DNA of 64,000 nt from Parvibaculum sp. Its GTDB lineage: Bacteria; Pseudomonadota; Alphaproteobacteria; Parvibaculales; Parvibaculaceae. The position numbers and the translations under genes are program-made. The first letter of the stretch is position 1. The number at the start of each line of letters is the position of its first letter. Shown in pieces: positions 1 through 7,322 of the stretch. The stretch is taken from positions 1 to 64,000 of the forward strand of contig NZ_JAUYUS010000112.1 in NCBI RefSeq assembly GCF_030694575.1, read 5' to 3'. The notes under the pieces were generated by a model, which was given only the letters and a program-made list of their open reading frames with translations, searched no databases and was not told the origin of the DNA.

Positions 1-375
1 ATGGACCGCGAGGATGCACGGATCGCGATGGCGGAAGTGGCGCCGGAGGGGATCGTCGTTTCCAATCATGGCGGACGGCAGCTCGACGGCACGCCGGCGA
101 CGCTCGACGCGCTGCCCGCGATCCGCGAGGAGGTGGGCGACCGGACGACGGTTTTCGTCGATGGCGGCATCCGAAGCGGGCTCGACATCGTGAAGGCGAT
201 GGCGCAAGGCGCGGATGCGTGCCTGCTCGGCCGCGCCTGGGCCTTTGCACTGGCGGCGCAGGGGGAAGCCGGCGTGAAGGCGATGCTCGGCACGATGCGG
301 CAGGAAATGCATGTGGCGCAAGCGCTGACGGGCTTCACGCGGGCGCGGGATATCGACGGCAGCGCGATTGCGTGA
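1..375 (+). CDS. FMN-dependent alpha-hydroxy-acid oxidase/dehydrogenase, C-terminal part
   Basis: This is the 3' end of a gene cut by the window edge, so its first ATG is probably internal. The 124 visible residues carry the family's active-site block SNHGGRQLDG (about 21-30), whose His and Arg act on the hydroxy acid, followed by the FMN-phosphate segment DGGIRSGLDIVKA (about 54-66) and GRAWAFAL. Members such as L-lactate dehydrogenase LldD, glycolate oxidase and mandelate dehydrogenase oxidise 2-hydroxy acids to 2-oxo acids. The substrate cannot be told from the C-terminus, so no symbol is given. Confidence 0.9.
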   Translation: MDREDARIAMAEVAPEGIVVSNHGGRQLDGTPATLDALPAIREEVGDRTTVFVDGGIRSGLDIVKAMAQGADACLLGRAWAFALAAQGEAGVKAMLGTMRQEMHVAQALTGFTRARDIDGSAIA

Positions 376-2307: not shown

Positions 2308-2646
2308 TCAGAGATCGAGTTCGGTGCGGCAGGCGGCCTTCAGAAGGGGAAGGCGGGAGCGGACCAGCTCCCATATGATTTCGATATCGATGTCGCCGTA
2401 GTCGTGACGCAAGATCGAACCGAAGCGGCGAAGGTTCACGAAATCCGCCTCGGGATATTTTCCGTCCAGCCCATCGCCGATCTTCCGTGCAGCTTCGCAG
2501 CATCGTTCAAGACATCGCTCGACAGCATCCTGCGTCAGCGGGCTGGAGCGAAACGCCGCTTCATCCATGCCCGCTACATGCCCCTCAATACGCGCGATCT
2601 GTTCGAGAATATCTCCGAGACGTTTCAGCGGATCGCTAGAAGGCAT
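2308..2646 (-). CDS. hepT: HepT-like HEPN-domain toxin
   Basis: This 112-residue all-helical protein matches the HepT/DUF86 family. It ends with the HEPN active-site pattern RFGSILRHDYGDID, i.e. R-X6-H-X-Y. In characterised MntA-HepT modules the HEPN protein is an RNase toxin, and the Tyr of the R-X4-6-H-X-Y motif is AMPylated by the partner nucleotidyltransferase. Its start lies inside the last codons of the upstream gene (11-base overlap, 2636-2646), so the two are translated together. It converges with the dienelactone hydrolase gene with only ten bases between them. Confidence 0.85.
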   Translation of the reverse strand: MPSSDPLKRLGDILEQIARIEGHVAGMDEAAFRSSPLTQDAVERCLERCCEAARKIGDGLDGKYPEADFVNLRRFGSILRHDYGDIDIEIIWELVRSRLPLLKAACRTELDL

Positions 2647-3133
2647 AAATCTGATCCTCGGCGAGATGTTCCGCGAGTTCCGGTTTCATGCCGGCACGAC
2701 GACGAACGATATCGACCGGGACGCCGATGAGGCTTTCGACAAGGCCGCCAATACCCGCGAGGTCGAGAATATCGAAGCGGCGAGCCGGATCGATATCGAC
2801 CACGATGTCTATATCGCTTTCGGGCGTGTCTTCCATGCGGGCGACGGAGCCGAAGACGGCGAGGTGGAGAACGCCTCGTCTTTCGAGTTCGGGTTGCGCT
2901 TTCTGCAGTGTACGGAGCACATGGGCGAGGCGGCTTTTGTGGCGCGGGCGATCCGACAGGGCCGATTGCAGCGCCTGTAGGCTGGCGCGGAGGGGCGTTC
3001 CCCTGCCCTTTTCGAAATTGACCAGCGTGGCGCGGGAGATGCCGGCGCGGCGGGCAAGCTCGGCCTGGGTCAGGCGGAGGCGGGCGCGGGCGGCGCGGAG
3101 GTCGGCGGGGGTGAGGGTTTCGGCAGTTTCCAT
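2636..3133 (-). CDS. mntA: XRE helix-turn-helix fused to MNT-type nucleotidyltransferase antitoxin
   Basis: The 165-residue product has two parts. Residues about 11-60 form an XRE/Cro helix-turn-helix (LTQAELARRAGISRATLVNF). Residues about 88-165 form a minimal nucleotidyltransferase with the exact G-S-X10-D-X-D catalytic signature (FGSVARMEDTPESDIDIVV). MntA antitoxins AMPylate and silence HepT. The added XRE domain suggests that the antitoxin also represses its own promoter in the AT-rich stretch just upstream (3134-3180). It is the first gene of the pair and overlaps hepT. Confidence 0.88.
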   Translation of the reverse strand: METAETLTPADLRAARARLRLTQAELARRAGISRATLVNFEKGRGTPLRASLQALQSALSDRPRHKSRLAHVLRTLQKAQPELERRGVLHLAVFGSVARMEDTPESDIDIVVDIDPARRFDILDLAGIGGLVESLIGVPVDIVRRRAGMKPELAEHLAEDQIYAF

Positions 3134-5277: not shown

Positions 5278-5321
5278 TTGACAGAAAAGGCGGGTGGCTT
5301 TTAGTTAGGCTACCGAACTAA
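5278..5321 (+). promoter_or_regulatory. Promoter with 21 bp palindromic operator
   Basis: TTGACA at 5278-5283 is a perfect -35. Seventeen bases later begins a 21-base near-perfect palindrome (5301-5321; arms TTAGTT-x-GG and CC-x-AACTAA around CTA) that covers the -10 position. A repressor bound there would block transcription of the nitronate monooxygenase gene. The size and symmetry suit a TetR or MarR dimer; the regulator is not identified. Confidence 0.65.
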
Positions 5322-5369
5322 ATGACGGCGCCGGTTTCACCCGGCCTCGCGCTTCAGGGAGTAGCCCCC

Positions 5370-6335
5370 ATGACGATCCGCACACCGCTTTGCGACCTTC
5401 TCGGCATCAAATATCCGATCATGCTGGCCGGCATGGGCGGGGTTTCCTATGCGGAACTCGCGGCCGCCGTATCCAATGCGGGCGGCTTCGGCACGCTCGG
5501 CATGGCCGGGCTGCAGCCGGAGGAGATCCGCGTGCAGATGAAGAAGGTGAAAGACCTGACGGACAAGCCGTTCGGCGTCGACCTTCTGGCGGCGGTGCCG
5601 GAATCGCTGGAGCGAACGGCGGACATCATGATCGAGGAAGGCGCGACGGCGTTCATTTCCGGTCTCGGCGTGCCGAACAACATCCTGAAGAAGCTGCACG
5701 ATGCGGGCATGAAGGTGATGAATGTGTGCGGCACCGTGAAACATGCGGTGGCGGGCGAGAAGGCGGGGCTCGACGGCGTGATCGCGCAGGGCACCGAAGG
5801 CGGCGGACATACGGGCAAGGTGGCCGGCATGGCGCTGATCCCGCAGATCGTGGACGCGGTGAAGACGATCCCCGTGATCGCGGCCGGCTCCATCGTCGAC
5901 GGGCGCGGGCTCGCGGCGGCACTTGCCTTCGGCGCGCAGGGCGTGTGGATGGGCACGCGCTTCATCGCCGCGAAGGAAAGCCATGCGGGCGACATGTACC
6001 GGCAGGTGATCGTGGACGCGAAGGACACGGACACGATCGTGACGCGCTGCTATTCGGGCAAGACGATGCGCGTGTTCAACAATCCTTACGTGCAGGACTG
6101 GGAGAGCCGTCCGCAGGAGATCCAGCCGTTCCCGCAGCAGGCGATCCTGTCGCATCAGAACAATGTGATGGGCGGTATCGGCGGGCAGATCGAAGGGCTC
6201 GACCGCGACCGCTCCTGCTTTGCCATGGGCCAGGGCGCGGGCGGTATTCACGAGGTGCTGACGGCGGCCGAAATCGTCGAGAAGACGATGGCGGAGGCCG
6301 AAGAGGTTCTGGCGCGGCTGAAGAAATACGCCTGA
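5370..6335 (+). CDS. Nitronate monooxygenase (2-nitropropane dioxygenase family)
   Basis: The 321-residue FMN TIM-barrel protein has the family landmarks PIMLAGMGGVSYAELAAAVS near the N-terminus, QGTEGGGHTGK (flavin and active-site His), IPVIAAGSIVDGRG and GVWMGTRF. Members oxidise alkyl nitronates; many homologues are generic FMN-linked enoate or quinone reductases, so the substrate is uncertain. The start is the ATG at 5370 (AGGGAG about ten bases upstream). The ATG at 5322 directly abuts the 21 bp operator and would leave no leader, so it is rejected. Confidence 0.85.
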   Translation: MTIRTPLCDLLGIKYPIMLAGMGGVSYAELAAAVSNAGGFGTLGMAGLQPEEIRVQMKKVKDLTDKPFGVDLLAAVPESLERTADIMIEEGATAFISGLGVPNNILKKLHDAGMKVMNVCGTVKHAVAGEKAGLDGVIAQGTEGGGHTGKVAGMALIPQIVDAVKTIPVIAAGSIVDGRGLAAALAFGAQGVWMGTRFIAAKESHAGDMYRQVIVDAKDTDTIVTRCYSGKTMRVFNNPYVQDWESRPQEIQPFPQQAILSHQNNVMGGIGGQIEGLDRDRSCFAMGQGAGGIHEVLTAAEIVEKTMAEAEEVLARLKKYA

Positions 6336-6424
6336 ACGAGACCGGCCGGCGGCAGGCCCGTTTCCTGCACCGCGTTCCCTGGAACCCGCACTTTTGAGGG
6401 GTGCGGACGGGAATTCGGGGCGGA

Positions 6425-6847
6425 ATGGAACAGGGACTGTCCATATTCGATACATACGGCTTCATGCGCCGGCGGAAGCGTGCGGTTTGCGCGCTGCTCG
6501 CCGCGCTGATGCTGGCCGCCGCGCCGCTTCCCCATGCCCGCGCGCTGGCGCTTCCAGGCACAATGCTGCAGCTCGCCGAGGTGCTGGGGGCCGTTCACCA
6601 TCTGCGGACGCTGTGCGGCACCAATGAGGGGCCGCTGTGGCGGAACAAGATGATCGAGATGATGAGCGTCGCCAATCCGTCCGAAACGGAGCGGCAACAG
6701 CTCATTCAACGCTTCAACGACGCCTATCACCGCTACCAGGACGCCTATCGGAACTGTACCGCCAAGGCGGCCAGCCAGTCCGACAAGCTGATGCTGGACG
6801 GGCAGAGACTGGCGGACGAGCTTGCTTCCGGCAGCTACGGCCGATAG
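6425..6847 (+). CDS. TIGR02301-type secreted protein
   Basis: This 140-residue protein has an N-terminal signal peptide (MRRRKRAVC then about 16 hydrophobic residues, ending PHARA). Its mature part carries LAEVLGAVHHLRTLCG and WRNKMIEMM, which I recognise from the TIGR02301 family of exported alphaproteobacterial proteins of unknown function. Two mature cysteines could pair. The ATG at 6425 follows a GGGG tract; GTG at 6401 and ATG at 6464 are alternatives, and the last would begin right at the signal peptide. Confidence 0.7.
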   Translation: MEQGLSIFDTYGFMRRRKRAVCALLAALMLAAAPLPHARALALPGTMLQLAEVLGAVHHLRTLCGTNEGPLWRNKMIEMMSVANPSETERQQLIQRFNDAYHRYQDAYRNCTAKAASQSDKLMLDGQRLADELASGSYGR

Positions 6848-7025
6848 CGGCGGACGAGTATCCCCTGCGACCCTATGGTTATCGGAGACGGCGTATGTCT
6901 CATCCGATATGGCGACCGTTAACCTCCGCTTCACGAAACGGGAGACATTCGCCGCGAGTGTGTTAAAAAGGCGATGTAATTCTCCGGCGCGTATGCCGGA
7001 GGCGAAAGTGCCGTAGAGAGGGACC

Positions 7026-7322
7026 ATGGCCGAAGATTTTCCTGGAGACGCCACGTTCGGTCCGCTCGACGAAGACGGATACGACGCGTCGCCGCTGACG
7101 GAATCCGAGCAGCGCCGCGTGGCATTGCAGAACATTCTCGACGCATGGGACGAAGCGCTGGGCGAAGGCGTGGAAGCCGACGTGCTGGCGACGACGGCGA
7201 TTTTCGCCGCGCTGTCCGACATGGTGGAAGCCTATGGCGAGGACGCCGTGGCGGAGATGGCGAACGGACTTGCCGACCGCGTGCGGCAGGGCGAGTTCAC
7301 GCTCAATCGCGTGCTGAACTAG
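7026..7322 (+). CDS. Small conserved acidic protein
   Basis: The 98-residue product is acidic and predicted helical (RRVALQNILDAWDEAL, ATTAIFAALSDMVEAYG). It has no signal peptide and no motif I can name. GAGGGA lies four bases ahead of the ATG, and a strong terminator follows the stop, so this looks like a real single-gene unit. The sequence resembles uncharacterised short proteins that I associate with alphaproteobacteria. No function is proposed. Confidence 0.7.
   Translation: MAEDFPGDATFGPLDEDGYDASPLTESEQRRVALQNILDAWDEALGEGVEADVLATTAIFAALSDMVEAYGEDAVAEMANGLADRVRQGEFTLNRVLN

Follow-up and report, generated by a model that had tools for sequence, protein, structure and literature searches.

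A conserved promoter palindrome in Parvibaculum as the putative operator of a MarR-type repressor of acyl-CoA genes

The promoter of a gene annotated as nitronate monooxygenase (NMO) in Parvibaculum sp. contains a palindrome to which a repressor very probably binds that is encoded just outside the 64,000-nucleotide stretch of DNA analysed here (contig NZ_JAUYUS010000112.1, positions 1 to 64,000, in the following referred to as the window). We consider it likely that the palindrome is the operator of a MarR-type repressor whose gene is located at approximately G000:C99:19421-19897 in the genome from which the window was taken, and that this repressor blocks RNA polymerase at genes of acyl-CoA metabolism; an acyl-CoA may release it from the DNA. 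The small regulatory circuit is apparently undescribed but conventional; a literature search, with subscription papers mostly outside its scope, yielded nothing on this MarR regulator or its operator. What had been an orphan palindrome becomes a testable set of regulator, operator and targets in Parvibaculum (Table 1), and acyl-CoA metabolism becomes a functional clue for a gene whose labelling as nitronate monooxygenase is probably misleading. Regulator, site and gene are repeatedly found together or missing together, a pattern that can moreover serve as a natural experiment.

Table 1. Features of the putative regulator-operator-target set (positions without a contig or locus label are those of the window)
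Feature	Position	Strand	Remark
FMN-dependent hydroxy-acid dehydrogenase gene, 3' part	1-375	+	Upstream part on contig C99, together with the MarR gene
-35 element TTGACA	5278-5283	+	TTGAC before the operator in 22/22 orthologous promoters
Hexamer TTTAGT, -10-like, which overlaps the operator's left arm	5300-5305	+	Predicted; placed by the 16-nt spacer
Putative operator TTAGTTAG-N5-CGAACTAA	core 5301-5321	+	Conserved 22/22; co-occurs with the MarR gene; recurs at the thiolase-like gene
Ribosome-binding site CAGGGAG	5355-5361	+	Precedes ATG 5370 by 8 nt; conserved among the aligned promoters
NMO/FabK-family FMN oxidoreductase gene (321 aa), controlled gene (predicted)	5370-6335	+	Pfam NMO and FabK matches
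Thiolase-like gene, second target (predicted)	G000:C68:43262		TLP1-type C-terminal domain
Putative operator of the same type	L069 7396-7416		Before an enoyl-CoA hydratase operon
Putative operator of the same type	L070 7364-7384		Flanked by an acyl-CoA carboxylase operon and a small divergent gene

The promoter and the conservation of its operator

A first-pass annotation of the window had pointed to a TTGACA -35 element followed by a near-perfect palindrome over the -10 region, and both are indeed present: the palindrome TTTAGTTAGGCTACCGAACTAAA (5300-5322) is found 16 nt after TTGACA, and its arms, TTTAGTTAGG and CCGAACTAAA, are complementary in 9 of 10 positions with a 3-nt centre between them. 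The hexamer in the -10 place agrees with TATAAT in 4 of 6 positions; because it has no A in the second position, a strict sigma-70 consensus scan of the promoter reported nothing.

As a bare palindrome the operator is unremarkable, the window containing 29 23-mers with at least 9 of 11 self-complementary pairs versus about 17 expected from base composition. The exact arm pattern TTAGTT-N9-AACTAA, for which a search of the complete genome had been proposed, has a single occurrence in the genome of 3.8 Mb; when as many as 2 mismatches are allowed, the 64 kb window contains 1 occurrence versus 0.03 expected. The operator recurs upstream of a thiolase-like gene, where ATGGTTAGCATTACGAACTAA lies just downstream of a promoter that we read as TGGACA-N16-TATTCT. 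Other sites with 2 mismatches (e.g., G052:C7:443210, G008:C166, G005:C293, and those in G045 and G049) showed no recurrence among the sites listed and are taken as chance, and among 385 genomes sampled from the class, a sample showing no g18 or g21 genome, the exact operator was found in the window's own genome only.

That the site is above chance follows from its conservation across orthologous promoters. It is present with no or one mismatch in all 22 of those found in the order, which comprise 18 orthologues of the window's genus (that of G012 from a second contig, L044) and those of G052, G053, G041 and G042. Conservation of this kind agrees with the earlier view that the operator is of a type read by a dimeric regulator of the MarR or TetR type, against which the lack of any conserved instance upstream of orthologues would have counted. 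In the arm columns the commonest letter averages 98% versus 49% in the flanks of the 22 promoters, the site columns being somewhat favoured because the rows of the alignment were anchored on the site. The distance from TTGAC to the hexamer in the TTTAGT position is 16-18 nt in 20 of the promoters and 12 nt in G041 and G042. When arm positions 7 and 15 are left free, 17 of the 40 genomes of the order match, and all matches share an A/C mismatch between the arms (GTTAG vs GTTCG). In Zavarzinia, which is outside the order, the hexamer in the -10 place is AATAGT, and 2 of 3 sites are perfect palindromes over TAGTTCGTG-N-CACGAACTA.

Two findings would fit an inverted repeat that arose by chance, or a promoter sequence whose conservation is due solely to the sigma factor: palindromy by itself comes close to what base composition predicts for the window, and the -10 is part of the left arm. 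Such an origin is nevertheless highly improbable: the right arm, which lies beyond the -10, is conserved in 22/22 promoters apart from one variable column, and the same element is found downstream of a different -10 at the thiolase-like gene as well as in another order.

The MarR gene and its association with the site

The first-pass annotation had assumed an unlinked regulator, and this assumption has to be given up. As judged from the contigs, a MarR gene is present on the same strand just past the left edge of the window, about 1 kb left of position 1 and about 6.3 kb upstream of the site. This placement rests on three observations. Contig C99 ends 1.1 kb beyond the MarR gene, in 141 nt that recur exactly as the first 141 nt of the window. 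The pieces of a dehydrogenase gene on C99 and in the window match residues 17-323 and 277-400, respectively, of one and the same G013 protein. And in G013 the gene order is continuous: MarR, dehydrogenase, other genes, site and NMO-like gene. Because the start of the window is the start of a contig overlapping the end of C99, the dehydrogenase gene is taken to be cut by the assembly and not by mutation. The 141-nt overlap could in principle be a repeat, but the continuity of the gene and the gene order in G013 argue against it. In relatives the MarR gene directly adjoins the site (G018, G041, G042 and all 3 Zavarzinia loci), in G042 directly upstream of site and NMO-like gene. Upstream of the MarR gene itself no site was found.

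By sequence and by its predicted fold the regulator belongs to the MarR family. It scores 48.9 bits with Pfam MarR_2 (cut-off 27) and 37.4 bits with Pfam MarR (cut-off 24.6), indicating the winged-helix domain, and its AlphaFold model (pLDDT 76.9) matches structures of the MarR family, MepR, HpaR and MarR among them, with Z values of 14-16 over about 130 residues.

Several other genes surround the site. At 2308-3133 on the minus strand a gene for a HepT-like (HEPN) protein is located beside that for an Xre-type HTH/nucleotidyltransferase fusion, which together look like a toxin-antitoxin pair of the HEPN/MNT type; in G004 (L118) the MarR and NMO-like genes have a similar-looking pair between them. 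An HxlR-family regulator gene is found at 878-1447 on the minus strand, with similar genes near the locus in G001 and G002. After the NMO-like gene, at 6401-7322 on the plus strand, a DUF2385 gene and a gene for a 98-aa protein without Pfam match follow. Similar genes are in the same place in several relatives, and in G054 and G055, where the NMO-like gene is missing, they come directly after MarR.

MarR and the site are several genes apart in most Parvibaculum genomes, and in the window the HxlR regulator and the HTH protein (2636-3133) are also near it. It should therefore be considered that another regulator binds the site and that the MarR gene merely shares a conserved neighbourhood. This appears unlikely, since in g18 and in Zavarzinia MarR directly adjoins the site and the genes called at the locus in G018, G042 and Zavarzinia include none for HxlR, and since sites at the distant thiolase-like gene track the presence of MarR. 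There the operator was found in 17 of 22 readable MarR-bearing genomes versus 0 of 14 MarR-less ones, the 17 positives having been seeded from the site search, the other 19 having been read irrespective of the site, and the MarR-bearing G008, G011 and G053 having been left out as not readable at this gene. The MarR-less genomes keep the thiolase-like gene, nearly all of them with a similar TGGAC promoter (G043 differs), and their best site there has at least 5 mismatches. The MarR-bearing genomes without the site are G004 (4 mismatches), G041, G042, G054 and G055.

Assignment of the site to MarR is also consistent with the distribution of the two. Of 40 genomes of the order, 25 have a MarR orthologue (E below 1e-45), and a site with at most one mismatch was found in 24 of these 25 versus 0 of the 15 MarR-less genomes (Fisher 4e-10, uncorrected for kinship). 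The sole exception, G051, has 2-mismatch sites only. If 2 mismatches are allowed, three MarR-less genomes (G045, G049 and G050) have one match each; that in G050, a 70% complete assembly in which no MarR was found, precedes an acyl-CoA dehydrogenase gene, and G051 has an identical site. None of the 15 MarR-less genomes has the NMO-like gene, which G051, G054 and G055 lack as well. Co-occurrence of MarR and operator is not independent of kinship. The tree used, built from 35 thiolase-like proteins, shows at least 4 changes of the MarR state, 3 of them forced by well supported branches, and on it a paired sign test was not significant, there being too few pairs.

Close relatives of the MarR protein were found at 26 loci (Parvibaculum, Parvibaculaceae, Rhodobiaceae, Hyphomicrobiales, Alphaproteobacteria, Tepidicaulis and Zavarzinia), with one distant match in addition, by a scan with two conserved peptides that would miss remote members. 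A MarR profile search of 9 genomes of other orders (E 1e-15), which had no positive control, found nothing. The NMO orthologues in G028 (75% identity) and G027 (66% identity), both outside the order, have no such site upstream, and this MarR search detected no MarR in either genome.

The controlled genes and the proposed mode of action

The gene behind the promoter had been named nitronate monooxygenase. Its family is confirmed by the Pfam NMO domain (PF03060; 227.9 bits, cut-off 28), whereas the enzyme name is doubtful, the product probably being nearer to FabK-type enoyl reductases. The PF03060 family also includes FabK enzymes, and a match to it is therefore no proof of nitronate oxidation. 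The best PDB matches are FabK enzymes, nearly over the full length and with about 205 bits, whereas PA1024 (2gjl, 6e2a) reaches 134 bits and the other nitronate monooxygenases deposited there reach 131 bits; these lower scores neither prove nor exclude nitronate oxidation. With the NCBIfam FabK equivalog TIGR03151 the score is 260.8 bits over the full length, which is below the cut-off of 453.1, and the protein is therefore not filed as FabK. The accessible part of a review on enoyl reductases (PMC9260719) contains nothing separating FabK from nitronate monooxygenases. The listed open reading frame starts at 5322, at the edge of the site; ATG 5370, after CAGGGAG, is the conserved start and likely the start codon.

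Further sites were found in G054 and G055, before an enoyl-CoA hydratase/acyl-CoA dehydrogenase operon and before an acyl-CoA carboxylase operon, and at the 3 Zavarzinia loci a MarR gene (63-65% identity), TTGAC, the operator and an acyl-CoA dehydrogenase gene stand in succession. Because the other targets all act on acyl-CoA compounds, the role of an enoyl-thioester reductase is the better guess for the controlled enzyme, and only a guess.

From the site and its association with the MarR gene we infer binding and repression by MarR as follows. A MarR dimer would bind the pseudo-palindrome of 21-23 bp and, provided that TTTAGT is the -10, would occupy positions from about -12 to +9, including the likely start point. 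Because the dimer would lie over the -10, RNA polymerase would be kept from opening the promoter of the FabK/NMO-like gene. MarR would also control the thiolase-like gene, which lies in another part of the genome, and the genes for enoyl-CoA hydratase, acyl-CoA dehydrogenase and acyl-CoA carboxylase in related genera. A ligand would release it, for which an acyl-CoA thioester of the pathway is the foremost candidate; the target genes suggest a MarR of the CoA-thioester-responsive type, and this ligand step, taken alone, is plausible rather than probable.

The site overlaps the -10 at the NMO-like gene and is just downstream of the -10 at the thiolase-like gene, and operators at such places usually block polymerase. 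We therefore regard it as improbable that the MarR protein activates, or that it activates at some promoters and represses at others, in spite of the fact that some MarR proteins are described as activators in the accessible part of PMC4737184.

Repression by an acyl-CoA-released MarR leaves room for a broader reading, which is speculative and for the present rather doubtful: a lineage-restricted MarR of Parvibaculaceae and Zavarzinia would sense acyl-CoA and control acyl-CoA genes at scattered places as one regulon, among them that of a FabK-like FMN enzyme whose reaction is the reduction of enoyl-CoA and not the oxidation of nitronates. If true, the operators would keep one mismatched half-site in Parvibaculaceae, next to the perfect palindromes at two of the three Zavarzinia loci.

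Comparison with known MarR systems

According to the accessible parts of two papers, CouR and BadR are MarR repressors of CoA-thioester pathways, have operators that are inverted repeats at promoters, and are released from DNA by CoA thioesters (PMC9795900, PMC4737184). Both have the MarR fold in common with the protein described here, and CouR is among its sequence and fold matches, although the sequence similarity is low (32 bits). The operators differ: as far as given in these sources, that of CouR is cATTGA-N5-TCAATg over the -35 and that of BadR is CAATnnATTG, as compared with TAGTTMG-N5-CGAACTA over the -10 in our case.

FabT, a MarR protein that represses fatty acid synthesis in streptococci and enterococci, is likewise similar in fold (6jbx; Z 14.2 at 17% identity). 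Many other structures tie with it, and because of such ties the fold comparison cannot separate a FabT-like from a CouR-like protein. An identity with FabT was rejected, the score with the NCBIfam FabT equivalog being 22.9 bits versus a cut-off of 200. FabT controls fabK, and the gene predicted to be controlled here is likewise of the FabK superfamily; FabK itself, an FMN-dependent enoyl-ACP reductase II, provides its nearest PDB relatives, yet its score stays below the cut-off for that enzyme. FabT regulates fatty acid synthesis, whereas the other targets here look like acyl-CoA metabolism and not like a fatty acid synthesis operon. Should the broader reading given above be true, the pairing of a MarR regulator with a FabK-type enzyme would have been reached independently of FabT.
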